From: Wenjunlia tyrosinilytica
Lineage (GTDB): Bacteria; Actinomycetota; Actinomycetes; Streptomycetales; Streptomycetaceae
Assembly (NCBI RefSeq): GCF_014646055.1
Contig: NZ_BMMS01000036.1
Location: 1 to 64,000, forward strand
Direction: 5' to 3'
DNA length: 64,000 nt
Position numbers and translations under genes: made by a program. The notes under the pieces were generated by a model, which saw only the letters and a program-made list of their open reading frames with translations, had not been told where the DNA came from and ran no database searches. This document shows positions 7,234-63,776 of the stretch, piece by piece (the first letter of the stretch is position 1; each line of letters begins with the position of its first letter).

Positions 7234-7251
7234 CCAGCCCCCGCGTACGAA

Positions 7252-7279: not shown

Positions 7280-7389
7280 AGCCTCCACATCCTGATCTAC
7301 GAGCCGCCTGTCGGGGTCGAACCGACGGCCCTCGCTCACGCCGGAAAGCCCTTGCGCACCTACCGCCGTCTATTGCGGCGAATTGCCGG

Positions 7390-7773: not shown

Positions 7774-7788
7774 GGCAAGGTCCTCTCG

Positions 7789-8361: not shown

Positions 8362-8402
8362 GAACAGATCCTTTCCGCATTCAGAGTGATCGGCACAGTA
8401 GC

Positions 8403-34797: not shown

Positions 34798-34842
34798 AGC
34801 CGTAGCCGCTCACCACGGAGACCAACGAACGGACGAAGGACT

Positions 34843-35859
34843 ATGCCCACGCCGCACACTCTTCCGAGCCAGGCCGTCGCCGCCCTCACGCGTCTGCGCG
34901 AGACCGCTCGCAGCAGGTCCGCGGACGCCCCTGAGGCGAAGGCGGAGCTCGCCCACTACGTCAACGCCCTGGTGGGGGCCGGGTGGCCGATGTCGGCCGT
35001 CGCAGCCCCCCTGGGAGTGACCCGTCAGGAGATCCACCGGATCAACAAGCAGTCCAGTACCCTTCCACGGCCCGCCCGGCTCCCGAAGGTGCCTGCCCTG
35101 CCCGAACCCGCGCCCGAGCCCTCCGCGAAGGAGCTGCGGGCGCCCCAGACCCTCACCCCCGCGGAGGCCAAGCGCCTGCGAGAGCTCGCTCCCCTGGCGT
35201 CGAAGGTGCGCGGGGTCACCGCCGAGGACGACCCCAAGCGCGAGGCTTCGGAGAAGTTCAGCAAGCTCCTGGCCGAGGCATGGATCCGCGGTGTGCCGCG
35301 GACGGAACTGCAGAAGGTCACCGGCCAGAGTCCGGCGGCGATGAGGGCCCGCCTCGCCCGCCACGGTTACATCAACCGGGGTGCGTCCGAGCGGCCCTAC
35401 AAGGGCAGGCAGGCGGAGTTCGCCAGGAAGCGGGACACCTGCAAGTACGGGCACGAGTTCACGCCGGAGAACACCTACGAGTACACCCGGCCGGACGGCC
35501 GCGTGGTGCGCTCGTGCCGCGCCTGCCATGTGCGCCGCCAGCGCGAGTCGGTCGCGGCGAGGACGGCCACGAGCACGACCTGCCGCAACGGGCACCCCCT
35601 CACGGACGAGAACACGAGCGAGTACACCCGCCGCGACGGGACGGTGGTCCGGCTGTGCCGCGTCTGCGTCGAGCAGCGCGGTGCGGAGTCCGCGGCCCAG
35701 CAGCGCCAGGAGGTCTGCAAGCGGGGCCACGAGATGACGCCGGAGAACACCTACGAGTACCACCGCAAGGACGGCAAGGTGATCCGCACGTGCCGCAGGT
35801 GCAAGACGCTGCGTCAGCGGGAGTACGAACAAAGGCACGGCATCACCAGCCACCGCTGA
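34843..35859 (+). CDS. HTH protein with three HNH-like zinc repeats (338 aa)
   Basis: Residues 20-70 hold an HTH (SAVAAPLGVTRQEIHRI) and a second HTH lies near 145-170 (TELQKVTGQSPAAMRARLARHG). Three copies of a zinc-binding unit follow near residues 199, 246 and 291: C-x2-GH-x2-T-x-ENTYEY-x-R-DG-x3-R-x-CR-x-C. The unit resembles half of an HNH/treble-clef nuclease or Zn-ribbon; His in the GH pair is kept in all three. It may bind or cut DNA. It has its own promoter and lies between terminators, so it is an independent unit, perhaps horizontally added. Confidence 0.72.
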   Translation: MPTPHTLPSQAVAALTRLRETARSRSADAPEAKAELAHYVNALVGAGWPMSAVAAPLGVTRQEIHRINKQSSTLPRPARLPKVPALPEPAPEPSAKELRAPQTLTPAEAKRLRELAPLASKVRGVTAEDDPKREASEKFSKLLAEAWIRGVPRTELQKVTGQSPAAMRARLARHGYINRGASERPYKGRQAEFARKRDTCKYGHEFTPENTYEYTRPDGRVVRSCRACHVRRQRESVAARTATSTTCRNGHPLTDENTSEYTRRDGTVVRLCRVCVEQRGAESAAQQRQEVCKRGHEMTPENTYEYHRKDGKVIRTCRRCKTLRQREYEQRHGITSHR

Positions 35860-47811: not shown

Positions 47812-50751
47812 TCAGGCGTCCTTCGGCCCCGACCGCTGCGCCTTGCGCGCCGCCGAAACCTTCCCGAACGGAACCGCGCCCCGCCCCCCGGAACCAGACC
47901 CGGCACCCGCCGCGCCGGAGCCGGAGTCCGCAGCCGTCCCCGGGCCGGAGTCCGTACCCGCCCGGGGACCTGCCCCATCCTGGGGGCCCCGCCGCACCGG
48001 CCACGGAATGTCCGGGGGCAGGTCCTCGTCGTCCTCCTCCGACGCCTGCGGCACCCGCGCCGCCCCGCCCGCCGGCAGTTCCCACCCCGCCGACGGCCCA
48101 GCCGCAGGCAGCGCACCGCCGACCGCACCGCCGGCCCCGGCCCCGGCCCCGGCCCCGGCCCCGGCCCTGGCCCCGGCAGGAGCATTCACGACCGGCCCGG
48201 CAGACCCCACAACCGGCCCCGAAGGCACCGCAGCAATCCCGGGAACCGACCCCGCCACGGCGCCGCCGCCGTCCCACTCCGCCGTCAACTCGTCCCACGC
48301 ACCACCGCTGCCCTGCGCAGCCGGACCCGACCCAGCGGACCCTCCACCACCCTGAACCTCGTGCAGCACCCCGTTGATCACCGTCGAAGCCTGCTGGATC
48401 ACCCGCTTCCCATGCCCCTGCGAACGCGAGATCAGCACGAACCGCCCCGGCACAAGATCCTGCAGCGTACGCGGAAGCACGATCGGATACTCGTTGTCCT
48501 CGTCCACCAGGTCGTCACCGGTCGTACCGCCCCGGCGGACCGTCACCACCCCCTGCGACACCTTCGACCCCATGCGCTTCTTCACCCACCGACGCGTACC
48601 AGCCACCCCGGCCACCCGGGCAGCCGCGTCCGGATCACCGACCCGGTGAGCCAGCAGCACATTGACGTTCGACAGCATCTGCCCGATCGCCGCCTTCTCC
48701 TGCGCCGCGATCTCGAGATCCTCGATCGTCTGCGTGATCAGCAGGACATCCGCCCCCGCGCTGCGCCCACGCACCATCAGCTCCGTCGTCAGACCGGACT
48801 CGAGCGCCGAGAACTCGTCCACGACCGTCAGCGTGCGCACCCGCTCGCCGATCTCACTCATCTGCCCGAACGTGGCGATCTGCGACTGCACCGCCACCCG
48901 CCCGAGCCGCGCCGTGTTGTCCTTGTCCCGTGCCTTGGAGAAGGAGAACAGCGCCACCGCACCCGAACGCCGCACCGCCGCGAGATCCATCACCGGATAC
49001 CCGTCGAGGTACGTCAGCCCCGCATGCTCCTCCACCGACTGCGGCTGCACCGGCCGCCGCATCCAGCGCCCGGCCGCGGTGTTGGCCAGAATCTCGAGCT
49101 TGGTGACGAACCCGTTGAGCACATCCGGGTCACGCCTGACATAGGTGCCCAGCCGGTAGATCTGCCCGTGGACCTCCGCCCGTTCCGGATGCTGCGCCGG
49201 GATCTGGGCCGCCCGCTGCGCCAGCCGCGCCAGATCGGACAGGGCGATGACCTGTTCCAGCGTCGAGTCGTAGGGCAGATGTGCGGTGGCGTCCAGGACG
49301 GCGAGGACCACCTGGACGTACAGCGTGGCCGCGTCCTTGTAGTAGTCCGGCGACCCGATCCACGAGTGACCGGACACCAGCATGTCCCGCCGCTCGTCCA
49401 GCGTGCCCGCACGGAACGGATCCCACCACGATCCGCCGTCGAGACTGAAGGTCACAATGGGCCGGTCGAAGTGGCCAGCCGCCGCGACGATCTCCTCGCG
49501 ATCCGCCCGCTCACCCTTCAAGTCGGTGTAGAAGACCGGCTGGCCCCGGTCGCAGTCGGCCTCGAAGACCTTGCGCGCCGTCGTCGTGTTGTGCGTCGGA
49601 ATGCCGGTCTCGCCGGCCAGGTAGAGGCGGCTCGGAGAGTCCACCGTCAGACACCGCACCGGCCGCGACGGCACCGGAAGCACGGCCAGGATGTGCCGCA
49701 CCCGCTCCCCGCCGGTCACCCGGTCCCGCACCGCCAGGTTGCTGACCCGCTCCCCGTTCCGGTCCTCCCCGCCCGACAGCGCGTCCCGGATCTCCACCGT
49801 CGTGTGCGGCACGGCGTGATCCCAGCCCGCCACCGGCGCACCGCCCGATCCGGGGCAGGTGACCCACAGGTGCCCACCGTCCGCCACGAGCACCGCACCG
49901 TCGCTGAACCGCACCGCGTAGCAGTCCCGCCCGTGCATCACCGGGTGCGCCTGAACGATGCTGCACCGCGCCCCGGTCTCGTCGAAGACCACATCCCCGT
50001 CGCCGAGCCGGCCCATGGGAACCAGTCCGCCGGGCGTCGGAACGGGGGTGTCGACATCCAGTGCCTTGCCCGAGCCGTTCGCACCGATGCACAGGATGTG
50101 CCCTCGCCGCTCTTCGTCGAACAGTTCCAGCAATGAGCCGTCCGCGCGGTTCACCCCGATCACGGCGCCTCGCGCGGTGGAGACCAGCTTCCCGGCCGCG
50201 ATCCTCCGCTCGACCCGCACCTGGCGCAGCGACATCCACACGCCCTTGCGCGGCGGCTTGACCATCCATTCGTCCGTGTGCAGCCAGCGGACGAACGCGA
50301 TCCAGTAGCCCACGAGCCCACCGACCAGCAGGGCCAGGGGGAACTGCCCGGTGAACCAGTCCGGCCACAGCCCGGCTGTTGCCTGGTCCAGCAGCCGTCC
50401 GACGCCCTCGTCCCGGTGCTGGGCGAACTCCCGGACCGCGTCCCACAGGGTCCGTGCTCCTGCGGCATAGTCCGCGGCAGCCCGTCCAGGTCCCCCGACC
50501 CCCGCCACCACCGCGACGCCCACGGCGCAGACCCACAGGCCGAACGACCGCCGCACCCGCACCAGCTCGGTCAGGGCGACGCACAGCAGGGCAACGGCGA
50601 GCGTCACGGGCGCGGTGACCGCGCCCACCACCACAAGGAGCACCAGAGCGCCGGTGACGGCGCCCCGGGTGTCCTGCGGGTCACCCAGCAGGTACTTCGC
50701 TCTGCGGAGCGGCTTCTCGCTGTCGCGAGACGACAGCGGGTTACCGGACAT
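47812..50751 (-). CDS. VirD4/TraG-type coupling protein interrupted by an intein (979 aa precursor)
   Basis: Membrane segments lie near residues 25-75 and 130-150. The P-loop GANGSGK (about 223-229) is followed by a 159-residue intein and then TTTARKVF, so splicing restores GANGSGKTTTARKVF. Later motifs are GQPVFYTDLKGERAD, Walker B LTVVDEFSALESG (about 640) and LLITQTIEDLEIAAQ. The protein couples DNA substrate to the channel. The C-terminal tail is Gly/Ala-rich with EDDEDLPPDIPWP. ATG 50751 with AAGGGGAT is preferred to a frame starting inside the 50817 box. Confidence 0.88.
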   Translation of the reverse strand: MSGNPLSSRDSEKPLRRAKYLLGDPQDTRGAVTGALVLLVVVGAVTAPVTLAVALLCVALTELVRVRRSFGLWVCAVGVAVVAGVGGPGRAAADYAAGARTLWDAVREFAQHRDEGVGRLLDQATAGLWPDWFTGQFPLALLVGGLVGYWIAFVRWLHTDEWMVKPPRKGVWMSLRQVRVERRIAAGKLVSTARGAVIGVNRADGSLLELFDEERRGHILCIGANGSGKALDVDTPVPTPGGLVPMGRLGDGDVVFDETGARCSIVQAHPVMHGRDCYAVRFSDGAVLVADGGHLWVTCPGSGGAPVAGWDHAVPHTTVEIRDALSGGEDRNGERVSNLAVRDRVTGGERVRHILAVLPVPSRPVRCLTVDSPSRLYLAGETGIPTHNTTTARKVFEADCDRGQPVFYTDLKGERADREEIVAAAGHFDRPIVTFSLDGGSWWDPFRAGTLDERRDMLVSGHSWIGSPDYYKDAATLYVQVVLAVLDATAHLPYDSTLEQVIALSDLARLAQRAAQIPAQHPERAEVHGQIYRLGTYVRRDPDVLNGFVTKLEILANTAAGRWMRRPVQPQSVEEHAGLTYLDGYPVMDLAAVRRSGAVALFSFSKARDKDNTARLGRVAVQSQIATFGQMSEIGERVRTLTVVDEFSALESGLTTELMVRGRSAGADVLLITQTIEDLEIAAQEKAAIGQMLSNVNVLLAHRVGDPDAAARVAGVAGTRRWVKKRMGSKVSQGVVTVRRGGTTGDDLVDEDNEYPIVLPRTLQDLVPGRFVLISRSQGHGKRVIQQASTVINGVLHEVQGGGGSAGSGPAAQGSGGAWDELTAEWDGGGAVAGSVPGIAAVPSGPVVGSAGPVVNAPAGARAGAGAGAGAGAGGAVGGALPAAGPSAGWELPAGGAARVPQASEEDDEDLPPDIPWPVRRGPQDGAGPRAGTDSGPGTAADSGSGAAGAGSGSGGRGAVPFGKVSAARKAQRSGPKDA
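49588..50064 (-). other. Mini-intein (159 aa) inside the VirD4 Walker A
   Basis: The segment starts ALDVDTPVPTPGGLVPMG (block A, with Ala instead of Cys at position 1), has block B-like GHLWVTCP, and ends RLYLAGETGIPTHN (blocks F and G with terminal His-Asn), followed by Thr as the +1 nucleophile. At 159 residues it has room only for the splicing domain, not a homing endonuclease. An Ala1 start means the non-canonical pathway in which the +1 residue attacks the N-terminal junction directly. Confidence 0.88.
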
Positions 50752-55127: not shown

Positions 55128-55146
55128 ACAGGGTGGTGAGCCCCGT
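55128..55146 (-). promoter_or_regulatory. NYCACCA leader hairpin (copy before 55103)
   Basis: On the minus strand: stem ACGGGG/CCCTGT (one G-U pair) around loop CTCACCA, 25 bases before the start codon. A TTGACG -35 lies at about 55196-55191. Confidence 0.75.
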
Positions 55147-55262
55147 TTATGTATTGACGAAATAGTACCCGAGCAATCACCCGTCAACCATCCAGCCCGC
55201 CCGCTGGCACCCCCTCCCCGGAGCACGTCAGCCACCTCGGGGTGTCCGGTACAGGGGTTCGC

Positions 55263-55307
55263 CGCGCGTGGGTTGGGCCAGCGGTCTCCTGGCCCAACCC
55301 ACGCGCG
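55263..55307. terminator. Hairpin terminator
   Basis: A perfect 19-bp stem (55263-55281 / 55289-55307), 7-base loop, just after the minus-strand gene ending at 55314. Confidence 0.82.
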
Positions 55308-55313
55308 TTCAGG

Positions 55314-55568
55314 TCATGTGCGCGCCACGGCTTCCAGGAACTTCTTGGTGATCTCCGCAGCAGGAAGCGTCGTCGGCGCGCTGCCGATGCGCTGCCCGTA
55401 CCGGTAGAAGACGAATGCGCTTCCCTCCTTCCGGACGAGGTAGCTGCCTTCCGGGACGCTGCTGGGGCGGCCGACGGTGAGGGAGTTGCCCTCTTCCGCC
55501 TCGGCCACGTACGGGGTGTGGTCCTGGATGTACTTGCGCAACCCCGTCAGGTCGGTGCTCTGTGGCAT
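55314..55568 (-). CDS. Small hypothetical protein (84 aa)
   Basis: Mostly beta-stranded: RKYIQDHTPYVAEAEEGN, VPEGSYLVRKEGSAFVFYRYGQRIGS, ending in a helix PAAEITKKFLEAVA. No family recognised. It has its own terminator and an upstream leader with two tandem NYCACCA-type hairpins (55587-55605 and 55617-55634) and a -10 TATCCT (55651-55646). Monocistronic. Confidence 0.72.
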   Translation of the reverse strand: MPQSTDLTGLRKYIQDHTPYVAEAEEGNSLTVGRPSSVPEGSYLVRKEGSAFVFYRYGQRIGSAPTTLPAAEITKKFLEAVART

Positions 55569-55586
55569 GTCGGTGCCTTCCGGTCG

Positions 55587-55634
55587 GCAGGGTGGTGAGC
55601 CCTGCGGTGACGGCCGCCAGGGTGGTATCCCTGG
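55587..55634 (-). promoter_or_regulatory. Tandem leader hairpins before 55568
   Basis: On the minus strand: CCAGGG-ATACCA-CCCTGG (55634-55617), then GCAGGG-CTCACCA-CCCTGC (55605-55587). The only leader with two copies. Confidence 0.78.
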
Positions 55635-55769
55635 TGACGACTAAAAGGATATCAAAACGAAGCACCCGTCCGCCTCTGGCGTTGCGGCCACAGCACCCTC
55701 CGCCAAGCCCCCCGGAGTCGGTGCTCTCGGGGGAGGGGCGGGTTGAGGGCTCGGGTGCCTCGAATGGCA

Positions 55770-55827
55770 TTGACTCGGTGGCGACCGTGCAATATCTTTT
55801 AGATGTCAGCCCGATGGGGTACCACCC
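55770..55827 (+). promoter_or_regulatory. Promoter and divergent leader hairpin of the precursor-peptide gene
   Basis: TTGACT (55770-55775), 17 bp, TATCTT (55793-55798), then a shorter hairpin GGG-GTACCA-CCC (55816-55827). The start codon is 33 bases further. Confidence 0.7.
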
Positions 55828-55859
55828 GGAGGGTCACCAAGGTGGAATGAGGTTCTGTC

Positions 55860-56018
55860 ATGCAGGTCGTTGTCGCTGTTCCGGCTGTTGTGGGTACGGG
55901 TGTCGCGGAGGTGGACGCGCTGTTCACCGGTGAGGCCGCTGTGTCGGTCGCGGGTGTCGGGCAGCGCTACGGGCGCAAGCCGTCGGGCACCTCGGACCAG
56001 GGCTGGTGCGAGGACTGA
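55860..56018 (+). CDS. Candidate RiPP precursor peptide (52 aa)
   Basis: The ATG at 55860 has GAGGT 6 bases upstream, a canonical promoter (55770-55798) and a 20-bp-stem terminator 20 bases after the stop, so it is very likely expressed. The peptide begins MQVVVAVPAVVGTGVAEVDA and ends RYGRKPSGTSDQGWCED. A hydrophobic leader-like half and a polar tail with Cys, Trp and acidic residues, directly before an asparagine-synthetase-like cyclase, suggest a ribosomal peptide precursor. No classical lasso core (Gly1 with Asp/Glu at 7-9) is obvious, so the class is open. Confidence 0.6.
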   Translation: MQVVVAVPAVVGTGVAEVDALFTGEAAVSVAGVGQRYGRKPSGTSDQGWCED

Positions 56019-56037
56019 TCAGGTCCTGACGCCACGA

Positions 56038-56081
56038 TGAACGGTTTCCCCCGGGCCGTGCGGCCCGGGGGAAACCGTTCA
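56038..56081 (+). terminator. Perfect 20-bp hairpin terminator
   Basis: Stem 56038-56057 / 56062-56081 with loop GTGC. It insulates the short peptide gene from the cyclase gene, though partial read-through (attenuation) could link them. Confidence 0.85.
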
Positions 56082-56203
56082 CAGGCTCCAGGCCGGGGCA
56101 GTGCCGGAAGCGGCGCAACCCCGGCCGCCGGCAGCCCCTGTGCCAGGGGCGCCCGCGTGCCTGGGGGAGGGTCTCGGCGGTTCGCGCCGTTCCGCCGCAT
56201 GGC

Positions 56204-56265
56204 TTGACGATCTTCGCATAGATAGCTAGCTTAAAGATGTCATCACGGAGTGGCTCACCACCACT
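56204..56265 (+). promoter_or_regulatory. Promoter and NYCACCA leader hairpin of the cyclase gene
   Basis: TTGACG (56204-56209), 17 bp, TAGCTT (56227-56232), then AGTGG-CTCACCA-CCACT (56249-56265), 22 bases before the ATG. Confidence 0.82.
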
Positions 56266-56287
56266 TCGCCCACACCAAGGGAGCGAC

Positions 56288-57841
56288 ATGCTGAAACTGT
56301 CAATCGTCGACGGGGACCTGTCGGGCGCGTGGAAGCGCATCGGCAACCGTTGGGAATGCGGCACCAGTTGGGTTGAGCCGTACCGGCATCCGATGCTTGA
56401 GCACGTGGTGTTCACCGACGGCCGTTCGGTGTGCCTGACGGTGCGTGAGCGCCGCGCCGGTACGCCTGTTCCGGCGGAGCCGTCCGCCCCGGAGGCAATG
56501 CCGACGCATGCCTACCGTGAGGCCGTGCGGGAACAGCGCGCATGGCCGCTGGACTCCCTCGTGCTGGAGATCGGCGCGGGTGAGCTGCGCATTCATGCGG
56601 GCCGTTCCCCGGTCGCGCCGGTGTACCTGGCGGATGGCGCAGGCCGGGTCTGCGGTTCCTGGGACATGGAGGACCTGCGCGCGTTCATGCGCCCTGACGC
56701 GTTGAATCCGCGCACGGCGGCCAGGTTGCTGTCGGGGCACGGGCGCTATGCGCACGAAACGCTGTTCGCGGGTGTCCACGCGCTCACGGAGCGCTCTACG
56801 GCGACGTTCGGTGTCCGTGGTCTTTCCCTGGCCTATCCGGAGCCGGTGGCACAGCCGCTGCCCCGTCAGCTTGTCGAGGGGGCGGACCCGGTCGCGGCTT
56901 TCGAGATGATGTTGGAGCGCGCGTTGGCTCTGCGTCCGATCATGGGTGAGCGCACAGCGATGCAGCTTTCGGGCGGGCAGGACAGTGCGACGGTGGCGCT
57001 GTCGCTGGGGGCGCTGTTCCCGGGTCGGGTGACGGCCTGCGCGATGATGCTTCCGGGTGAGGTCGGGGTGCAGCAGGAGCGCCGTCGGCGTGCCCTGATG
57101 GAAGCGTCGCGGATGGCGGCGGATGTGCGGATTGCGGCGCTGGACCTGCCGCCGCTGTCTCCGGGTGGGCGGCGCGTGGCCGGTCCGGGGTGGTCCAGTC
57201 CGTTCGAAGAGCCGTACTTGGAGCTGCTGACGGCGCTTCTGGGCCGTCTGGGGGCTGCTGGGGTTCACACGGTGGTCACCGGTTTCGGTGGCGATGAGTT
57301 GATGATCGCTCCTCCGGGGCACCGTGGACCGGCGGCGGATCGGTTCTGGCTCGGGCCGGTGGCGCGGGAGATGGCCGTATTCCGGGATGAGGCGATTGCG
57401 CCCGCGTCGGCGGTGCCGGAATCGACGCTGATGGCGTTGTCGGCGGTGGCTCCGGCCATGCTGCGCGCGGGTATGTGGCCGGTTGCTCCGCTGGCGTGGG
57501 AGCCGTTGGGGCGGTTCGCGCAGTGGCTTCCGGAGGAGTGGCGGTTGGACAAGCGCGTGATGCGGGAGCGGCTGGCGCGTCTTGGTCTGCCGGGTGAGGT
57601 GGCGCGTCCGGTGCTGCGTGAGAACTTCGCGGACGTGATGGCGACGGGTCTGCATCGGCATGGCGGGGGTCTGCTGCGGCGGTTCGCGGATGAGTCGTAC
57701 GTGGTCGGTGCCGGGCTTGTCGACGGGAGCGCGCTGCGCCGGGTGGCCGATCGGGTGGCCGCAGGTGTGCCGGGGGCGCGTGAGGTGGCGGATGTCTACC
57801 CGGTGGTTGCGCTGGAGTTGGCGTTGCGGTCGCTGGGGTGA
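56288..57841 (+). CDS. Asparagine-synthetase-like protein, probable macrolactam cyclase (517 aa)
   Basis: The N-terminal domain resembles the glutaminase half of AsnB but lacks the catalytic Cys2 (starts MLKLSIVDG). The synthetase half has the PP-loop MQLSGGQDSATVALSLG near residues 224-240 and VVTGFGGDELM near 334-344. Lasso-peptide cyclases (McjC/LarC type) have this same combination: AMP activation of a side-chain carboxylate, no glutaminase. A short peptide gene lies just upstream, but no leader peptidase or RRE gene was found, so a housekeeping protease or distant genes would be needed. An amidating enzyme for another substrate is the alternative. Confidence 0.8.
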   Translation: MLKLSIVDGDLSGAWKRIGNRWECGTSWVEPYRHPMLEHVVFTDGRSVCLTVRERRAGTPVPAEPSAPEAMPTHAYREAVREQRAWPLDSLVLEIGAGELRIHAGRSPVAPVYLADGAGRVCGSWDMEDLRAFMRPDALNPRTAARLLSGHGRYAHETLFAGVHALTERSTATFGVRGLSLAYPEPVAQPLPRQLVEGADPVAAFEMMLERALALRPIMGERTAMQLSGGQDSATVALSLGALFPGRVTACAMMLPGEVGVQQERRRRALMEASRMAADVRIAALDLPPLSPGGRRVAGPGWSSPFEEPYLELLTALLGRLGAAGVHTVVTGFGGDELMIAPPGHRGPAADRFWLGPVAREMAVFRDEAIAPASAVPESTLMALSAVAPAMLRAGMWPVAPLAWEPLGRFAQWLPEEWRLDKRVMRERLARLGLPGEVARPVLRENFADVMATGLHRHGGGLLRRFADESYVVGAGLVDGSALRRVADRVAAGVPGAREVADVYPVVALELALRSLG

Positions 57842-57848
57842 GTGGTGG

Positions 57849-57881
57849 GGGGTGCCCGTCCCGGGTGGGGGCGGGCACCCC
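57849..57881 (+). terminator. Hairpin terminator
   Basis: GGGGTGCCCG (57849-57858) pairs with CGGGCACCCC (57872-57881), 8 bases after the cyclase stop. Confidence 0.75.
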
Positions 57882-57992
57882 GGTTCGCACGCCCCGGGCG
57901 GGATGCTGTGCGGGCGGTGGTTGCGGGCCGGCGACCCCCTCTTCCGAGCATCCGGGGCGGCTGGGGGAGGGGTCTTCTCGTCGGGCTGGGGC

Positions 57993-58047
57993 TTGCCTGG
58001 CACCTCAACGATTGCTATGTTTAGAGTCATCAGGGTTCACCACCCTG
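57993..58047 (+). promoter_or_regulatory. Promoter and NYCACCA leader hairpin before 58075
   Basis: TTGCCT (57993-57998), 17 bp, TATGTT (58016-58021), then CAGGG-TTCACCA-CCCTG (58031-58047). Confidence 0.8.
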
Positions 58048-58074
58048 GCGGACACCGAGCAGGAGGAACACCGA

Positions 58075-58269
58075 ATGAACCGCCAAGACGTCTTCGCCCA
58101 CTACAACCGCACCGCGCTGCCCCATGACGTCATCCTTCACGTCGCCGTCAACGGGACGGTGTGGATCAAGCCCCGGTACAAGGCGGGCGTGAAGACCTGG
58201 GGCGACGTCAAGAAGGCAGTCCGCGACCTGGAGGCCCAGGGCAACACCGTCACCTTCGCGGTCGGCTGA
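58075..58269 (+). CDS. Small basic protein (64 aa)
   Basis: The peptide has a predicted beta hairpin (DVILHVAVNGTVWIKPRYKAG) and a helix (WGDVKKAVRDLEAQG), ending in a strand NTVTFAVG. It could be a compact nucleic-acid-binding fold, but no family is recognised. AGGAGG lies 9 bases before the ATG; a 20-bp terminator follows 12 bases after the stop. Single-gene unit. Confidence 0.72.
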   Translation: MNRQDVFAHYNRTALPHDVILHVAVNGTVWIKPRYKAGVKTWGDVKKAVRDLEAQGNTVTFAVG

Positions 58270-58281
58270 CCCTCTGCCAGT

Positions 58282-58324
58282 GCTGTGGCTCCGGCTCCCC
58301 CGCCGGGGGAGCCGGAGCCACAGC
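58282..58324 (+). terminator. Strong hairpin terminator
   Basis: A perfect 20-bp stem (58282-58301 / 58305-58324) with a 3-base loop. Confidence 0.85.
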
Positions 58325-58385
58325 CGCGCCCGGCGGGCCTGGGGGAGGGGTGGCCGGCGGCCAGGGGAGCGGCCCCCGCCGGGGG

Positions 58386-58883
58386 TCACCCCCAAGTGAT
58401 CTCCTTGTCGTTGGTGGAGGCCCAGAGAGCCAGCTGCTGGAGTTCCTCCAGCCGGGCACGGCCGTAGCCTGCCGGGCGGCCGCAGTCGATGAACTGCGCC
58501 CGGCCCGCCTCGCGCAGCGGCGCGGAGGCACCCATACCGGTGTCGTCGAACCCCCGGTTGAGCGCGCGCAGGACGAGCCTGGCCAGGTCCGCCCCCGGCA
58601 GGGTCCCGCACAGGTCCTCGGTGTCCAGGCCCAGCAGGCCCAGCAGGTACCGCGCGTTGGCGTTGCTGACGTTGACCTCCTCCGGGGTCCCCTCGGGGTA
58701 GACCGGGTGCGGATACACCCCGTAGACCGCGCAGTCCTCCTGTCCGCAGGTCTGCGTGTGAGCGGGCAGGGCGGCGCGCGCCTGCGGGTACGTCTCGTGC
58801 CGCACCGGGATCCGCTCCTCGCCGTCGGCGCAGACGTTGACGAAGGCGATGGGGGCGACGAGGGCGGAGAAGGTGACGGACAT
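58386..58883 (-). CDS. Hypothetical protein (165 aa)
   Basis: Four cysteines (VCADG, TCGQEDC, DLCG, DCGR) and many prolines around YGVYPHPVYPEGTPEEVNV, then helical segments (LLGLLGLDTEDL, ADLARLVLRALNRGF, LEELQQLALWAS). Soluble, no signal. The type is seen in actinophages and plasmids but I cannot name a function. Its leader has a TTGACG/TACTGT promoter (58966-58938, minus) and a NYCACCA hairpin. Confidence 0.7.
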   Translation of the reverse strand: MSVTFSALVAPIAFVNVCADGEERIPVRHETYPQARAALPAHTQTCGQEDCAVYGVYPHPVYPEGTPEEVNVSNANARYLLGLLGLDTEDLCGTLPGADLARLVLRALNRGFDDTGMGASAPLREAGRAQFIDCGRPAGYGRARLEELQQLALWASTNDKEITWG

Positions 58884-58909
58884 GCGGGGTGCCTCCCTTG
58901 GTGGATGGG

Positions 58910-58966
58910 GCGAGGTGGTGAGCCTCGCGATGACTAAACAGTAGCCATTTGATGCGCATGCGTCAA
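58910..58966 (-). promoter_or_regulatory. Promoter and NYCACCA leader hairpin before 58883
   Basis: Minus strand: TTGACG (58966-58961), 17 bp, TACTGT (58943-58938), then GCGAGG-CTCACCA-CCTCGC (58928-58910). Confidence 0.82.
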
Positions 58967-59364
58967 CTCAATCGGGGCCCGGCGGCCGGCATCCGGGCCC
59001 CTGTACCGAGCGCTTCGAGGCCTGTGCGTCTTGGGGGAGGGCGGCGTGGGGTGGCGTGGTCCCGCGCCGCGGCGCGGGACCACGGGGATCAGGTGCGGTC
59101 CGGGCCGCAGCCGGGGCAGATGAGCACCTCGTCGCTCGGCCGGGTCCCGCCGCCGATGCGGGTGCACGCCTCCGGGCGGGTTGGCTGCCCGAGCCACGGT
59201 GCGGCGGACGGGAGCGACGAACTCCCGTTGCGGCCCGGCCGCCTCCGGCTGTCAGGAGCATTGCAAAGTGTGCCGCGGGGGCCACAGAAGGCTCTCTGAG
59301 CCCCTGAGAGAGTCGAGGGTAGGGGGAAGTAGCCAAGGGCCCGTTCAGGCCGCCAGAGGGGCGC
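58967..59364. other. Gap with a 30-bp palindrome and a possible zinc-knuckle remnant
   Basis: A perfect 30-bp palindrome lies at 59055-59084. On the minus strand, a frame without any usable start codon (about 59300 to a stop near 59098) ends EACTRIGGGTRPSDEVLICPGCG, which looks like part of a zinc-binding protein. It may be a gene remnant. Confidence 0.4.
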
Positions 59365-60465
59365 TCAGACGGCTTCTCGGGCCTGTTGCGTTGCGCACTC
59401 TGGGCACAAGGTCGAATCGACGGGCATGGGACGGCCGCACAAACCGTAGTTTCCTGGACATTCCGGGTACCTCGCGACGGTGAGCGCCGCGGGTGCGGAG
59501 TTGCGTTGTCGTGGTACCGCGGCGGCAGTTGACGGCGCGTCGGTGGCTCTTCTTCGGTCGGCGCGGCGTTCCTCGCAGCGCGGGCAGGCTGCGCCGGTGT
59601 CGATGTTGTGCCCGTCCTCGCACCGGGGGTCGGGGCATTCGCCGGGGCGGACCAGGGCGACGGCGACGCCCACCGGGCGGGTGATCTGTCCGGCGTGGAA
59701 GCGCGCGGCGTGGCCGTGGTGGTTCCAGCGGCGTTCGATGCGGGCTGCCAGCTGGTCGGGGGTGCGGCCCTGCTCGAGGGCGGCGGTGACGGCGTCGGTC
59801 AGGCTCGCGGGCAGCCGGTCCGGGAGGGTGCGGCGCAGCTGCGGGGGCAGGGCGGTGACGACCCAGCGCACGGAGCGCGGGCGGGTGGTGGTGCGGGGTG
59901 GAGGGTGCGGGGGTTCGGGCGCGGCGCAGCCGCTTCGGGCGCGCGCGCTGGGTACCGCAGGTGGCCTGCGGCCGTCGGGGGCGCTGCGCGCCGCAGGCGC
60001 GCTCGTGTTCTGTTCGTTGGTGTTCTTGGGGTTGTTGTTCTTCTTATGCAGGCGATTATCCACCGGTGGTTTATCCACCGGTGGATAATCGCCCTCTGGT
60101 TCCGACCTGGGGTTTTGTGGTTCTGGGAGGGTTTCGGGGTCGGTTTCGGGCTGGTCGGTGATGAAGTAGGTGGATGTACCAAGTGTTCCGTCGGGGCGGC
60201 GTTCGCGTTCGCGGGTGAGGTAGCCGTAGCGCTCGAGTTCGCGCAGGGCTGTCTTGACGGCTGAGACGCCGTCGGTGGAGGCGGCGGCGATGGTGTCGGG
60301 TGTGATGCCGTAGCCGTCGCGGTGGGTGCTGATGAGTCCGAAGACGCCTTTGGCCTTGAAGGACAGGCGTGGGTCGCGGAAGAGCGCGTTTCTGATCTGG
60401 GTGAAGCGGTCGGCGGCCATGTTGCCGCGACGGACACGCCCCCATCGGTCCGTCTCGTCGGTCAC
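59365..60465 (-). CDS. Winged-helix replication-initiator-like protein (366 aa)
   Basis: The GTG at 60465 gives the conserved Streptomyces opening TDETDRWGRVRRGNMAADRF, then a winged helix (ALFRDPRLSFKAKGVFGLIS; VSAVKTALRELERYGYLTRE; TSTYFITDQP) to about residue 105. A disordered linker, a second helical domain (about 190-250) and two zinc-knuckle clusters at the end (CPDPRCEDG...CPRC and CPGNYGLCG...CPEC) follow. The family is common on Streptomyces plasmids and phages as a helix-turn-helix or replication-initiator-like protein. DnaA-box-like repeats lie inside the gene, which favours a replication role. Confidence 0.72.
   Translation of the reverse strand: MTDETDRWGRVRRGNMAADRFTQIRNALFRDPRLSFKAKGVFGLISTHRDGYGITPDTIAAASTDGVSAVKTALRELERYGYLTRERERRPDGTLGTSTYFITDQPETDPETLPEPQNPRSEPEGDYPPVDKPPVDNRLHKKNNNPKNTNEQNTSAPAARSAPDGRRPPAVPSARARSGCAAPEPPHPPPRTTTRPRSVRWVVTALPPQLRRTLPDRLPASLTDAVTAALEQGRTPDQLAARIERRWNHHGHAARFHAGQITRPVGVAVALVRPGECPDPRCEDGHNIDTGAACPRCEERRADRRRATDAPSTAAAVPRQRNSAPAALTVARYPECPGNYGLCGRPMPVDSTLCPECATQQAREAV
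60052..60092. repeat. Inverted repeat with DnaA-box-like sequences
   Basis: Perfect 18-bp arms (60052-60069 / 60075-60092) separated by 5 bases, each containing CCACCGGTGG and TTATCCAC-type 9-mers (three such motifs in 35 bp). It lies in the linker-coding part of the 59365-60465 gene (encoding PPVDKPPVDN). Streptomyces linear plasmids can carry origin iterons inside a rep gene. Confidence 0.65.
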
Positions 60466-60807
60466 GGGTTGTTGGCTCCCGTGGCCGGCTGTGCTGTGGT
60501 GGGTTTTGGTGCTGGGGTGCGCTGGTGGTTGCGCAGGGGGTTGCGTACGCTCATGTCTGAGCTTCCTCCTGACTTCTGCTGTTGGAGAGCTCTTGGCGCC
60601 GGGGGGCAACCCGGCGTCTCAGGCCCCGCCCCCGTGGTGGGGCCTGCTTGTTGTTTGTGGATGCCATCGTGCCTCATGGCGTGTGGGTGGTGTTCATGTG
60701 GTGTGTGTTCATGTCGTGTGTGATCGGCGGTTGTTGTGTTGGGGTCTGGTCGGCTCGCTGCGCTGCGGCGCCCCCCTCTTCCTGGTGTGCCGGTCGGTGG
60801 GGGTGCG
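60466..60807. other. Non-coding gap upstream of the replication-like gene
   Basis: No supported gene. A GC hairpin CAGGCCCC/GGGGCCTG (about 60624-60650) is present, and a GTGT/CATG-rich tract (about 60675-60745) that probably holds the promoter of the 60465 gene. Confidence 0.45.
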
Positions 60808-60844
60808 CGAAGGGCGCCGCGCAGTTGCTCCGCGGCGCCCTTCG
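60808..60844. terminator. Hairpin terminator
   Basis: A perfect 14-bp stem (60808-60821 / 60831-60844), 9-base loop, 13 bases after the stop of the minus-strand gene ending at 60857. Confidence 0.8.
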
Positions 60845-60856
60845 AGTTGGTGGGGG

Positions 60857-61135
60857 TCAGTCGGTGTATTCGATGCCGGTGCTGATGCGGCCGTAGGTGG
60901 GGGTGTAGACCGCGGTGAGCGGGAAGGTGATGGCGATCGGGGTGTCGCCGAGGATGAGGATGTCGGGGGTGCCGACCAGCACGGTGCCGGTGTCGGTGCG
61001 GATGACGGTGTACCCGTTGCGCTCGTGCTCCTTGATGGCGGTCAGGGCGGCTTCGGCGGCCAGGGGGGTGGTTCCGTCGGCGTCGGTGCGGGTGAAGCCG
61101 GTGACTTCCTGGAAGACGGTGCGGATCTCGCGCAT
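60857..61135 (-). CDS. Small hypothetical protein (92 aa)
   Basis: Helix (AAEAALTAIKEHERNGYTVI) then strands (RTDTGTVLVGTPDILILGDTPIAITFPLTAVYTP). Compact alpha/beta protein with no motif I know. Start at 61135 (MREIRTV), after AAGGAGC. A leader with TTGACG (61244-61239), TACTTT (61221-61216) and a 7-bp-stem NYCACCA hairpin precedes it. Confidence 0.7.
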   Translation of the reverse strand: MREIRTVFQEVTGFTRTDADGTTPLAAEAALTAIKEHERNGYTVIRTDTGTVLVGTPDILILGDTPIAITFPLTAVYTPTYGRISTGIEYTD

Positions 61136-61158
61136 CGGGTGCTCCTTGCGGTGTTGGT

Positions 61159-61244
61159 GCCGGGGTGGTGGGCCCCGGCTGCTCACGGTTGGCGTTCCCG
61201 CTTGCTGACGACTTAAAAGTAACAGACTCGGAGTGTGGCGTCAA
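61159..61244 (-). promoter_or_regulatory. Promoter and NYCACCA leader hairpin before 61135
   Basis: Minus strand: TTGACG (61244-61239), 17 bp, TACTTT (61221-61216), then GCCGGGG-CCCACCA-CCCCGGC (61179-61159). Confidence 0.8.
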
Positions 61245-61264
61245 CTCTCCCGCCCACCCTTGCC

Positions 61265-61307
61265 CCCTCCCCCAGGAGCCCCTGAACCGGGGGCGGTTGG
61301 GGGAGGG
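61265..61307. repeat. CCCTCCCCC...GGGGGAGGG element
   Basis: Arms 61265-61273 and 61299-61307. One of at least four similar extragenic elements (also 55695-55738, 62141-62179, 62617-62659); probably a terminator-type repeat. Confidence 0.6.
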
Positions 61308-61367
61308 TTTCGCCGGCGGCTGGAGGAGGGGGGAGGGGGCCGGTGCGCGGCCCCCTCCGTGCGGGTG

Positions 61368-61706
61368 TCATGCCTTCAGTGCGTTGATGACGCGCTGTAC
61401 GCGGCCGGGGCGGCGGGGGGACGGCGGCGGTGTCTCCAGTGCCGTGATGCGGGCTCGTGCGTGCCCCAGGATCGCCAGGTGCGCGGCGCGCGTGCGGCGG
61501 GGGGCTCGCGGTATCAGGGCGGCGTAGGCGTTGGCGGCCGCCCTGCTCAGGTCGGGGGACGGTGAGGTCATCGCGGTGCGCAGGGTGTCCCTCATCAGGG
61601 TGCGCAGTGTGTGCCTGACACGGCGTCGCTTGTTGACGACGAGGCCGAGGAACATGATCAGCATGGGGAGCGTGCCGCCGAGCAGTGCGGTGGTGATGCG
61701 GTCCAT
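61368..61706 (-). CDS. Small protein with N-terminal membrane helix and basic body (112 aa)
   Basis: One transmembrane helix (about residues 5-24) is followed by an Arg-rich helical body (NKRRRVRHTLRTLMRDTLRTAM, APRRTRAAHLAILGHARARITALE). It lies 15 bases downstream of the 61722 gene and is probably translated from the same mRNA. No family recognised. Confidence 0.68.
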   Translation of the reverse strand: MDRITTALLGGTLPMLIMFLGLVVNKRRRVRHTLRTLMRDTLRTAMTSPSPDLSRAAANAYAALIPRAPRRTRAAHLAILGHARARITALETPPPSPRRPGRVQRVINALKA

Positions 61707-61721
61707 GGTGGGTCTCCTGCC

Positions 61722-62036
61722 TTACTGGTCGGTGGTCCGGTCGGTGGTGGTGGGCAGGCTGTGGCGTGCCAGCCTGCGCTGGTCGCGGGTGGCGCTGGTC
61801 GCGTTGGTGGCGAGCATGTCCAGTAGGTCGGTTCCGGCGGCGTGTGCGTGTGCGTCGCCGTCGGCGTGGACCAGGTCCAGCGCCAGCAGGTAGTCGGCGT
61901 TCCATTCGGCGGCGCGGCCTGCCGGGTCGGTGAGGAAGTCCCAGGCCATCAGTGCGCCGGTGACGGCGTAGATGACGGCGAGGATGACGGCTAGGGGCAG
62001 GGAGATGGTCCCCGGTGGGATGGCGCCCGGCGGCAT
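61722..62036 (-). CDS. Small membrane protein (104 aa)
   Basis: One transmembrane helix (about residues 10-30; ISLPLAVILAVIYAVTGALMAW) then a helical soluble part (AAEWNADYLLALDLVHADGDAHAHAAGTDLLDMLA) with several His and Asp residues. Start at 62036, preceded by AAAGGACG and a NYCACCA leader hairpin. First gene of a pair with 61368-61706. Function unknown. Confidence 0.68.
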   Translation of the reverse strand: MPPGAIPPGTISLPLAVILAVIYAVTGALMAWDFLTDPAGRAAEWNADYLLALDLVHADGDAHAHAAGTDLLDMLATNATSATRDQRRLARHSLPTTTDRTTDQ

Positions 62037-62058
62037 GTGTCCGTCCTTTGGTGAGGAC

Positions 62059-62095
62059 GCGGGTGGTGAGCCCGCCAACTGTTTGTAAAAGCATA
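62059..62095 (-). promoter_or_regulatory. -10 box and NYCACCA leader hairpin before 62036
   Basis: Minus strand: TATGCT (62095-62090), then GCGGG-CTCACCA-CCCGC (62075-62059). Confidence 0.75.
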
Positions 62096-62140
62096 CCCGG
62101 TGGCCCCGCCCGGTGGCCCCGCCCCGACCGGCCTCGCGGC

Positions 62141-62179
62141 ACCCTCCCCCAAGCGCCCCGGGGGCGGTCGGGGGAGGGT
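62141..62179. repeat. CCCTCCCCC...GGGGGAGGG element
   Basis: Arms ACCCTCCCCC (62141-62150) and GGGGGAGGGT (62170-62179), with an inner GCCCC/GGGGC stem, between divergent promoters. Confidence 0.65.
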
Positions 62180-62224
62180 GGACCGAGGGGGTGGCGGGGG
62201 TGGTTCGTGTGCGGGCGAATTTGC

Positions 62225-62262
62225 TAAAGTAAACACATCAGGTCGAAGGGGCTCACCACCCC
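62225..62262 (+). promoter_or_regulatory. -10 box and NYCACCA leader hairpin before 62296
   Basis: TAAAGT (62225-62230), then GGGG-CTCACCA-CCCC (62248-62262), 33 bases before the ATG. Confidence 0.75.
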
Positions 62263-62295
62263 GGAGGCATTCACCAATGCAAACGGAGGTTTGCC

Positions 62296-62553
62296 ATGGG
62301 CATCGCAGAACGGATCGCCAAGGCCGGTGGCCGCGCCGCCGCGCGGAAGATCATCGATGGGCTCGAGAAGAAGCTCGGCGAGGCACGCGCCAACGTCAAC
62401 AACTGGGGCGAGCTGCAGAAGGAGCGCGCGTTGGCGCGGGACAGCAAGGGCGTCGGGCAGTGCGCCCGCCAGCTCCACAAGTGGGGCAAGGAGGTCAAGA
62501 AGCTCGAGGCCGAGATCAAGCTGGCGAACAAGGCGCTGGACAAGCTGAGCTAG
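62296..62553 (+). CDS. Small coiled-coil protein (85 aa)
   Basis: All-helical, with heptad-like Leu/Ile/Ala spacing and balanced Lys/Glu (IIDGLEKKLGEARANVNNWG, LHKWGKEVKKLEAEIKLANKALDKL). Likely an oligomerising antiparallel coiled coil. ACGGAGG lies 6 bases before the ATG. No family recognised. Confidence 0.72.
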   Translation: MGIAERIAKAGGRAAARKIIDGLEKKLGEARANVNNWGELQKERALARDSKGVGQCARQLHKWGKEVKKLEAEIKLANKALDKLS

Positions 62554-62616
62554 CGCGTGCGGGAGGGGGCAGGCCCTGCCCCCTCCCGCGACCAGTCCCC
62601 CGGCAGCCGGCCGGAA

Positions 62617-62659
62617 CCCTCCCCCGGGAGGCCCCGCCGCCGTGGCGCTCGGGGGAGGG
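62617..62659. repeat. CCCTCCCCC...GGGGGAGGG element
   Basis: Arms 62617-62625 and 62651-62659, downstream of the 62296 gene. Confidence 0.6.
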
Positions 62660-62706
62660 GTGGGGCGGCGGTGAGCGGCCGGGCGGATGCTGCGCCCTGG
62701 GGCGTG

Positions 62707-62747
62707 CGTGTGGGGGTCGCACACGCAGCCTGTGCGACCCCCACACG
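62707..62747. terminator. Hairpin terminator
   Basis: A perfect 17-bp stem (62707-62723 / 62731-62747), 7-base loop, between convergent genes ending at 62553 and 62767. Confidence 0.83.
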
Positions 62748-62766
62748 GGTGATTCAGCGCCGGTGA

Positions 62767-63117
62767 CTACTCGTCACTGCCGTCGGCGTCCCTGACCTCG
62801 ATGACCCCGTTGCCGTGGTGCACCAGGTCGAACCCGTTCTTGTTCAGGAACTTCATCTGCTTCAGCATCTCGCCCTTGGCCTCTTCCCGCTGGATCCTGA
62901 CCCGGTTCGATCCGGGGCCGCTCAAAGAACCGTCAATGGTCATCTCCACCAGGGTGATGTAAACCGACTGCGCGCGGTGCATCTTGTCGAGTGCCTTCCG
63001 GATGTCGCGAGCCTTCTTCTCCGACGCGATGAACTTGACCGTCTTCACCGTCGCCTTGCCGATGGCCTTGCTCGTTCCCACGGTCATCTTGACGCTGATC
63101 TCTACACCCTTGCCCAT
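62767..63117 (-). CDS. Small basic protein (116 aa)
   Basis: Lys-rich alpha/beta protein: EISVKMTVGTSKAIGKATVKTVKFIASEKK, then a helix KARDIRKALDKMHRAQSVYITLVEMTIDG and a C-terminal part REEAKGEMLKQMKFLNKNGFDLVHHGNGVIEVRDADG. No family recognised; RNA or DNA binding is possible from charge. AAGGAGG precedes the ATG; leader hairpin at 63143-63157. Confidence 0.7.
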   Translation of the reverse strand: MGKGVEISVKMTVGTSKAIGKATVKTVKFIASEKKARDIRKALDKMHRAQSVYITLVEMTIDGSLSGPGSNRVRIQREEAKGEMLKQMKFLNKNGFDLVHHGNGVIEVRDADGSDE

Positions 63118-63142
63118 GGCATTTCCTCCTTGGTTTCTTCCC

Positions 63143-63157
63143 GGGGTGGTGATCCCC
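63143..63157 (-). promoter_or_regulatory. NYCACCA leader hairpin before 63117
   Basis: Minus strand: GGGG-ATCACCA-CCCC. A TTGACG -35 candidate lies near 63193-63188. Confidence 0.72.
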
Positions 63158-63338
63158 TGTCCGGTTGGACAATTGGAACATTACTCGGCGTCAATTCGTC
63201 GGCGCTATCGAATGTGGTCCCCGTCACCGAATTCCGGGCCTCTGTACCGGTCAAGACGCCTTCTGGATCGGTACAGCCTCCGGAAAGCCTTCCGCCCCGC
63301 TCCGCTGTGCGGGTAGCTTTCATGGGGGCAAAAGACGG

Positions 63339-63357
63339 CGGGGCTTCACCAGCCCCG
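63339..63357 (+). promoter_or_regulatory. NYCACCA leader hairpin before 63381
   Basis: CGGGGC-TTCACCA-GCCCCG, 23 bases before the ATG. Its innermost C-G pair is absent from other copies, an example of stem variation with pairing kept. Confidence 0.78.
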
Positions 63358-63380: not shown

Positions 63381-63776
63381 ATGGCACGTGAAATCGGCCC
63401 CGTGGACACCATCAGGCTGCAAAGCGGCATCTACAGGCGGGGCGGCAGGCAAATGGAGTGGGACAAGGTCTACGCCGAGGTGTACGACTGGACGCAGAAA
63501 AGCGGGCTGGTCTTCAGTATCAGCGGAACCGGGCCCTACCGGGTCAAGTACGACGGCAGGACGGTGGCCGAGTACCGGCAGGAGGTGGTTACCGCGTCGG
63601 CGGTGCACACCATGCCGGTGCACTGCCCGAAGAATGCCGGTCCGCAGAGCATCGCCATTGTCTTCGGCGCTCACGATCGCAGCACCGGGGGAACGGTTGC
63701 CTACGTGCGCATCAGGGATGAACTCATGTCCTGGAAGGGCAAGGGGGAGAGGTGTCGGTCGGCAAAGGTGATGTGA
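63381..63776 (+). CDS. Hypothetical beta-rich protein (131 aa)
   Basis: Predicted mostly beta: AEVYDWTQKSGLVFSISGTGPYRVKYDGRTVAEYRQEVVT, SIAIVFGAHDRSTGGTVAYVRIRDEL. Soluble, no motif known. GGGAGA lies 6 bases before the ATG. The stop overlaps the next start (GTGA), so a downstream partner is co-translated. Confidence 0.7.
   Translation: MAREIGPVDTIRLQSGIYRRGGRQMEWDKVYAEVYDWTQKSGLVFSISGTGPYRVKYDGRTVAEYRQEVVTASAVHTMPVHCPKNAGPQSIAIVFGAHDRSTGGTVAYVRIRDELMSWKGKGERCRSAKVM

Follow-up and report, generated by a model that had tools for sequence, protein, structure and literature searches.

A structured leader RNA shared by many small genes

Computational analysis of a 64,000 nt stretch of DNA from Wenjunlia tyrosinilytica, called the window in the following, revealed that many small genes on both strands are preceded by the same structured leader RNA. 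The window comprises bases 1-64,000 of a contig of 81,527 bases (C36) in a genome of 8.49 Mb (G000), and the leader is built around a hairpin, designated hairpin II, that presents the word ACCA in its loop. The leader array extends beyond the window to 73.6 kb of the contig and comprises 27 leader genes. In 26 of these the hairpin is present, and the open reading frame (ORF) 54139 is the one leader gene without a stable hairpin. Within the genome the leaders are confined to this contig, and a related set exists in a second genome of another genus (G010). A functional RNA structure common to these genes is well supported because the hairpin covaries, because it lies between promoter and Shine-Dalgarno (SD) sequence, and because it recurs in the second genome. 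The observation is therefore strong: this is a real structured leader RNA, so far without a name, that is found in two genomes and is the common label of many plasmid genes.

Proteins encoded on the contig matched ParA, ParB, TraG/TraD, TcpC, an AAA family of the VirB4 kind and NlpC/P60, and these matches make it probable that C36 is a conjugative plasmid or element. Base composition and plasmid matches point to a relative of Streptomyces as the probable host. The region from about 54 to 74 kb contains mostly small genes on both strands. All eleven hairpins that a preliminary description of the window had reported were present to within 3 nt, ten with the loop N[CT]CACCA and one with ATACCA. 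That list was incomplete, as it missed the hairpin at 55815-55828 with the loop GTACCA, a weak copy is also present at 34806-34818, and the array runs on to 73.6 kb. The leader features of the window are as follows.

55128-55146, minus strand: hairpin II (ACGGGG CTCACCA CCCTGT) before ORF 55103-54807, then an ACCAAA box
55587-55605, minus strand: hairpin II (GCAGGG CTCACCA CCCTGC) before ORF 55568-55314
55617-55634, minus strand: second, upstream copy in the same leader (ORF 55568-55314), CCAGGG ATACCA CCCTGG, right after a GTCA box
55793-56020, plus strand: leader and lasso-precursor-like ORF 55860-56018, a duplicated unit of 228 bp
55815-55828, plus strand: hairpin II with a 6 nt loop (TGGG GTACCA CCCG)
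56227-56280, plus strand: leader of ORF 56288-57841, with -10 TAGCTT, GTCA, hairpin at 56246-56268 (CGGAGTGG CTCACCA CCACTTCG) and ACCAA box
58016-58060, plus strand: leader of ORF 58075-58269, with -10 TATGTT, GTCA, hairpin at 58030-58048 (TCAGGG TTCACCA CCCTGG) and ACCGA
58896-58943, minus strand: leader of ORF 58883-58386, with -10 TACTGT, hairpin at 58910-58928 (GCGAGG CTCACCA CCTCGC) and CCACCAA box
61152-61221, minus strand: leader of ORF 61135-60857, with -10 TACTTT, GTCA, hairpin at 61159-61179 (GCCGGGG CCCACCA CCCCGGC) and ACCAA
62045-62095, minus strand: leader of ORF 62036-61722, with hairpin at 62059-62075 (GCGGG CTCACCA CCCGC)
62225-62279, plus strand: leader of ORF 62296-62553, with -10 TAAAGT, ATCA, hairpin at 62248-62262 (GGGG CTCACCA CCCC) and TCACCAA
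63143-63157, minus strand: hairpin II (GGGG ATCACCA CCCC) before ORF 63117-62767, then an AACCAA box
63339-63357, plus strand: hairpin II (CGGGGC TTCACCA GCCCCG) before ORF 63381-63776, then ACCAA
54148-54184, minus strand: leader-like stretch TATCTTTTAGTAGTCA ... CTACCACC without a stable ACCA hairpin, before ORF 54139-53555
34806-34818, plus strand: outlying weak copy (CCG CTCACCA CGG), then ACCAACG, before ORF 34843-35859

Recurrence and covariation of hairpin II

Between 55.0 and 63.4 kb, ten N[CT]CACCA hairpins with at least four pairs were found, compared with a mean of 0.26 and a maximum of 3 in 300 dinucleotide-preserving shuffles. A covariance model of the hairpin and 12 further bases (R1) was built from 22 of 27 copies, leaving out four copies with six-nucleotide loops and one near-duplicate. 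When the whole genome was searched with R1 at E values up to 10, 24 places were found, of which 23 lie on C36 at 55.1-73.6 kb, and the single place outside the array had an E value of 3.7. At 54-74 kb, 15 of the 16 N[CT]CACCA hairpins with at least five pairs are on the same strand as a leader gene and 5' of its start codon, the exception being 67628-67648.

Over both genomes, 58 leaders were collected (28 of C36 and 30 of G010), 53 of them with a primary hairpin (27 and 26); these have 51 distinct tails. The ACCA word is presented in loops of 6-8 nt, and hairpin II has 21 loop types. The loop is CTCACCA or TTCACCA in 31 of the 53 hairpins, where only the letters flanking the preselected ACCA are informative, and the 53 hairpins have 32 distinct inner stems. 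The distance from the end of the stem to the start codon is 18-48 nt, taking 62296 as the start for the hairpin at 62248; the range of 20-40 bases given before was too narrow.

Covariation was quantified for an alignment of 36 of the 39 hairpins with seven-nucleotide loops from both genomes; three G010 hairpins (L085 2976, L086 163 and L061 5675) were left out as their loop was offset or the hairpin was that of the SD sequence. Cells changed on both sides of the stem numbered 61, compared with 23.6 (standard deviation 4.0) in shuffles, and the covariation score was 0.513, compared with 0.143. The fraction of paired cells was 75.3%, a value inflated by the partial choice of the 36 hairpins for their pairing; shuffles gave 53.8% and slid registers 39-51%. 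None of 500 shuffles was as high in any of the three measures. The 22 copies of C36 alone had 28 both-side changes, compared with 12.9 in shuffles (0 of 500 as high). Covariation therefore exceeded composition and register controls alike, which is the general mark of a functional structured RNA, and the conclusion that had been drawn from the window was borne out in the wider alignment. The chance count at 55.0-63.4 kb and the genome search with R1 are less affected by selection for pairing.

Both-side changes peak at stem columns 3 and 5 (14 and 15 of 36 hairpins). The stems are not fully free, as the two loop-adjacent pairs are G-C in 31 and 33 of the 36 hairpins; there are many distinct stems, but the statement that they differ completely was an overstatement. 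Likewise, the claim that they always pair applies to the three inner pairs, each of which forms in 36 of 36 hairpins, but not to the outermost pairs, which are frequently unformed.

Anatomy of the leaders and layout of the genes

From 5' to 3', the order of elements is a -35 box (TTGAC-like in many leaders, by eye), a -10 box TANNNT, an RTCA box, hairpin II, usually a second box [AG]CCAA, the SD sequence, and the start codon. A -10 box was assigned in 51 leaders. The RTCA box lies exactly 6 nt 3' of it in 34 of the 43 leaders having the box, a count to be read with the fact that the choice of -10 favoured box-bearing ones. The R of the box is therefore placed at the expected transcription start site, and the RNA is predicted to begin with RUCA. 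Hairpin II starts at least 5 nt past the -10 box in 50 of 51 leaders (median 16 nt). A promoter-only pattern, composed after the leaders had been seen, matched 20 distinct places on the contig. Sixteen of these lie upstream of ORFs at 54.1-73.6 kb, and 15 of the 16 are followed by an ACCA-loop hairpin, with 54184 as the exception.

The second box was found in 35 of the 51 distinct tails, compared with 6.35 in shuffles (largest 15), and before 4 of the contig's 43 other genes. In folding, a median unpaired probability of 0.91 was predicted for the first (R)CCA of the tail, and one of 0.51 for the SD sequence. The SD sequence is GGAGG, GGAG or GGGAG in 43 of the 58 leaders. In 18 of 46 leaders, with 11.7 expected, the second box can itself form a hairpin loop (score of at least 9), in several cases with the SD sequence in the 3' arm; over the leaders the mean score was 7.17 against 5.37 in shuffles, and none of 300 shuffles was as high. 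For example, the second ACCAA in the leader of ORF 62036 may be the loop of an SD-pairing hairpin (CGTCCT CACCAA AGGACG), and in the leader of ORF 55103 the hairpin of the second box and SD sequence is mutually exclusive with hairpin II.

Eight leaders, seven of C36 and one of G010, contain an extra hairpin near the very 5' end, which has a variable stem and a triloop (GAG, GGG, GGA or AGG) that may equally be written as a five-base loop, RGRGU or near. In the G010 leader it is directly followed by ACCAAG and then by an SD hairpin. The approximate positions are given below; L031 positions refer to the continuation of the contig, in which L031:3534-3761 is contig 66534-66761.

L031, -10 or GTCA near 5060, 5623, 6118, 9190, 9629, 9972 and 10520: extra 5' hairpin
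L085:3010-3060 (G010): extra 5' hairpin

The leader genes are of many kinds and mostly small, and they include lasso-peptide-like genes and transporters. Most of them are single units with a terminator-like hairpin behind: for 25 of 27 there is no gene on the same strand within 60 nt, and behind 21 of 27 a hairpin of at least eight pairs lies within 90 nt. Farther upstream, the sequence GGGGGAGGG occurs 28 times on the contig, exclusively at 55.7-73.9 kb (55729 to 62651 in the window and on to contig position 73875), and often forms a palindrome with CCCTCCCCC. It is located 112-148 bases 5' of the start codon in 15 of 27 leader genes, and one or the other half was found within 300 bases in 18 of 27. 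A box of this kind, searched with a stricter pattern and with some ranges shortened by contig ends, lies 90-220 bases upstream in 4 of 29 G010 leaders. The palindrome probably serves, upstream of the promoters, as a boundary or control element in DNA.

A related set in a second genome

In G010, which belongs to the same family, the leaders are on contigs C17, C160, C193 and C15. Thirty leaders were examined, 26 of them with a primary hairpin; they derive from 32 stretches after removal of L061 6671 and L086 3529 (neither has a start codon) and of L085 18384 (doubtful ORF) and addition of L061 8214. Many of the stems are wholly unlike those of C36, e.g. ATCAGC/GCTGAT and GTCAGGC/GCCTGAC, and in several leaders the 5' arm of the hairpin begins at the RTCA box. 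The genes encode transporter-like proteins (of the major facilitator superfamily, by eye), membrane proteins and small orphan proteins. A covariance model of the full leader (R2), built from 14 leaders, yielded 53 matches at E values up to 0.5 in 480 kb, training copies included, and each of these fell either within the C36 leader region or on a contig of G010. The nine loci from other plasmids that served as controls gave no match. The two genomes have few proteins in common, namely an acetyltransferase (63%), a 131-amino-acid protein (29%), winged-helix replication-type proteins and a short match of 78491-78691. In addition, a coiled-coil protein, queried with three rows each taken from a different leader of the two genomes, was present in 2 of 41 relatives, which are G000 and G010 themselves.

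No third genome with the leader set was found with R1, R2 or a sequence pattern in the family (394 genomes), the order (293), the class (394) and the relatives of G010 (247), samples that overlap and that, above 40 genomes, were filtered more strictly, such that weak or few-copy cases may escape. Single pattern matches in G370, G228 and G071 were attributed to chance on the basis of their number only, a reversed control being similar, and R1 matches in G001, G093, G124 and G151 had no leader-like surroundings by eye. The contig DNA matched no plasmid or phage record, and the small proteins matched nothing in viral contigs, plasmids and phages except for one match of 26 residues, whose locus (L062) has no leader with a CCAA box. 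The replication-type protein matches 128 plasmid records. Leaders were absent from the stretches of roughly 40 kb examined in five of these, and also from 31-41 kb of four of the five records that encode a related acetyltransferase. In IMG/VR, the promoter-plus-loop pattern was found in 54 stretches. R2 matched six of them at E values of 0.012-0.21, which were taken as chance, the best being three near-identical stretches of low GC content. Among genome contigs the same pattern was found in at least 117 stretches, with no actinobacterium among the 80 listed.

Comparison with known RNA elements

The window had no match to Rfam 15 at the gathering cut-off, in agreement with the earlier statement that no named motif fits. 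At a permissive threshold there were 5 matches at 54-64 kb and 11 on L031, L061, L085, L087 and L110 (L086 was left out), all below gathering and none on the leader hairpin. A tRNA or another known RNA was rejected. A terminator or attenuator was rejected as well, as no TTTT follows within 12 nt of the stem in 53 of 53 leaders, and SD sequence and ORF come after it. No description of the motif was found in searches of open-licence papers.

Cluster K mycobacteriophages contain start-associated sequences (SAS), repeated before the start codons of non-structural genes, and about half have an upstream inverted repeat (extended SAS, ESAS) (PMC3203893). These elements resemble the present leaders in being many stereotyped copies just 5' of start codons on an actinobacterial mobile element. 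However, the SAS is an invariant 13-bp sequence located at the translation start, and ESAS has conserved arms and a variable spacer; in the leaders, by contrast, it is the loop that stays constant and the arms that change. By eye, neither the 13-bp SAS GGGATAGGAGCCC nor the 17-bp conserved arms of ESAS were found in the 58 leaders.

CsrA is a protein that recognises a short word twice, in a hairpin loop and close to the SD sequence. The leaders are similar in that the loop word is repeated near the SD sequence, but the word is GGA in CsrA sites and ACCA here, and none of the 21 loop types of hairpin II contains GGA. In the eight leaders with a separate 5' hairpin, the loop of that hairpin does bear GGAG, GGA or GAG. 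No CsrA gene (PF02599) was found in either of the two genomes, compared with 3 positives among 14 control genomes. To our knowledge, regulons of one leader RNA and one factor are rare outside CsrA-like systems. CsrA/RsmA translational regulators have been reviewed (PMC7652899), and RsmQ is reported as a plasmid-borne member of this type (PMC9928087).

A trans-acting factor on two ACCA sites as the preferred explanation

The best explanation, to which we assign a probability of about 45%, is that the genes form a plasmid-borne regulon whose standard 5' leaders act in the RNA, with a trans-acting RNA-binding factor that reads both ACCA sites and controls the start of translation. The start site, the factor and the sign of its effect are what we infer. 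The transcript would start at the RUCA box, six bases past the -10 box, and the hairpin would fold and show ACCA in its 6-8 nt loop, while the second, mostly unpaired (R)CCAA would adjoin the SD sequence in most leaders. The factor, most likely a protein of the element or the host, would owe its affinity to contact with the loop and exert its effect through the second box. Its binding would set the access of ribosomes to the SD sequence, most likely as repression and possibly as activation, and one factor could govern some 27 separate cassettes on both strands simultaneously. That the loop word recurs next to the SD sequence suggests one factor with two contacts, and the many kinds of gene under the same leader fit one common regulator. 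As the second box can form the loop of a hairpin that holds the SD sequence, repression by holding this sequence is the most economical reading, with a modest excess of such hairpins over shuffles. With dozens of unrelated plasmid genes bearing one RNA signature, a single factor may control the plasmid cargo. The two ACCA sites offer clear mutants, and the reading is directly testable by reporters in Streptomyces.

Several results weigh against this explanation. No candidate for the regulator was found among 47 leader-region proteins, for which the best Pfam match had an E value of 0.0031; the sole RNA-related family among the 25 of 29 Pfam families listed was the zinc ribbon of the rRNA methyltransferase RlmA (E 0.0057). 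The second box is weaker in G010, where it occurs in 14 of 26 tails as compared with 21 of 25 on C36. The SD-pairing hairpin occurs in a minority of leaders, in a number mostly expected from composition. In isolated folding, the probability of the hairpin was over 0.7 in only 31 of 52 leaders. Finally, the rules and models for collecting leaders demanded parts of the motif, chiefly the loop ACCA, which biases the counts towards it. The loop shares UCACC with the 3' end of 16S rRNA, and it had been proposed to pair with ribosome-binding sequences. However, GGTGA occurs within 25 bases before the start in 0 of 58 leaders, and GGTG in three, and this idea is therefore unsupported. The other earlier proposal, that a protein binds the loop, is possible; no candidate was identified in the Pfam and PHROG matches of the leader-region proteins.

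An unlikely alternative, though one to be taken seriously, is a constitutive mRNA module without a regulator of its own, in which the 5' hairpin shields from 5'-end-dependent decay, the unpaired, CA-rich ACCAA aids ribosome loading, and cassettes keep the leader for good expression in any host. The hairpin is indeed near the predicted 5' end (a median of 16 nt past the -10 box), it includes the RTCA box in several G010 leaders, eight leaders have an extra 5'-terminal hairpin, and the second box is mostly and the SD sequence about half unpaired (medians 0.91 and 0.51). Nevertheless, protection needs no single loop sequence, yet CTCACCA or TTCACCA is present in 31 of 53 hairpins, such that the constancy of the loop speaks against protection as the hairpin's sole role, and the second copy of the same word is left without a reason. 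It is improbable that the leader is a nascent-RNA element that modifies RNA polymerase by pausing or antitermination and is read, as hairpin and linear box, on emergence. In their layout, nut sites combine a hairpin and a linear box near the 5' end; boxB has a fixed loop and a tolerant stem, and nut and put sites serve long operons through terminators. The leaders share with boxB/nut and HK022 put the small hairpins near the transcript 5' end, but their units are mostly single genes with terminator-like hairpins behind, so that there is little to read through (25 and 21 of 27 genes, as given above), which argues against antitermination. LoaP-dependent leaders resemble the present ones in having a regulatory hairpin. 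NusG (PF02357) had one match per genome (G000:C4 and G010:C140), not on leader contigs, with no paralogue such as LoaP. For put, the hairpin-and-box layout is reported (PMC9378689), and LoaP is reported to be a specialised factor (PMC12691694).

We consider it quite improbable that the two ACCA sites are targets for base pairing by a trans-acting small RNA whose loops read UGGUGAG and UUGGU. Loops of six to eight nucleotides and two repeated target words would suit kissing-type pairing, but on the contig the two complementary words occur in tandem 14 times, each time antisense to a leader, and three further hairpins with one such loop, in a search of the contig only, sit in called ORFs. A separate antisense RNA on the contig was rejected, as no hairpin with both complementary words exists outside the leader antisense strands. 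It is highly improbable that the palindromes work at the DNA level, as cruciforms or as operators next to the promoter. They do lie at the transcription start region, where repressors bind, and a separate DNA palindrome (CCCTCCCCC ... GGGGGAGGG) exists upstream of many of the promoters; operators conserve half-sites, whereas in these leaders the two arms covary around a constant, strand-specific loop (15 of 16 on the strand of the leader gene). Targets of ANTAR proteins consist of two tandem hexaloop hairpins with A1 and G4, a definition that the list of ACCA-type loops does not fit. ANTAR-target RNAs of actinobacteria are reported to be, like the present leaders, hairpins common to several genes (PMC8164766).

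A duplicated cassette and further observations

The 228-bp unit at 55793-56020 is 100% identical to contig 66534-66761. It starts at the -10 hexamer and ends 2 nt past the stop codon, and there is no identity at that level beyond its ends. Together with the cassette layout, this duplication invites the reading that the region is a mobile cassette array, in which genes of any origin would be captured between -10 box and stop codon, each gaining the same RNA switch, and one element-encoded RNA-binding factor would silence or release the whole cargo, e.g. after transfer. We regard this reading as doubtful. A 97-bp direct repeat, 100% identical and with a start-to-start distance of 101 bp, is located at L031:1097-1294 (contig 64097-64294), with an undetermined base nearby (an X in one ORF).

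We see a resemblance to an albusnodin-type lasso peptide set in a group that comprises a GNAT acetyltransferase, two asparagine-synthase-like genes and short precursor-like peptides in which GQRYGRKPSGTSDQGW lies close to the end.

55860-56018 and 56288-57841: lasso-like set in the window
L031:3168-3341, 3601-3759, 6212-7591 and 7681-8544: lasso-like set beyond the window

A recurrent group of proteins of 78-92 amino acids is encoded under leaders (55314-55568, L031:2231-2473, L031:1738-1974 and G010 proteins), with a very divergent alignment. The structure model of the 55568-type protein (predicted local distance difference test, pLDDT, 85) has a predicted alpha-beta5-alpha fold and no Foldseek match at an E value of 0.001 or better; by VIA Z score, the weak likenesses were best to a P. 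aeruginosa operon regulator (8.6), followed by DR_1245 and Rv3902c (5.6). The model of the 63381 protein was uninformative (pLDDT 40).

The protein of ORF 34843-35859, which is distant from the array and has the weak leader copy upstream, contains repeated CxxGH...CRxC motifs. Two HNH-endonuclease PHROGs each match one protein of the set containing it, which is taken to be this protein. The TraG/FtsK-type coupling protein encoded at 47812-50751 carries an insertion that, from its sequence, we presume to be intein-like.

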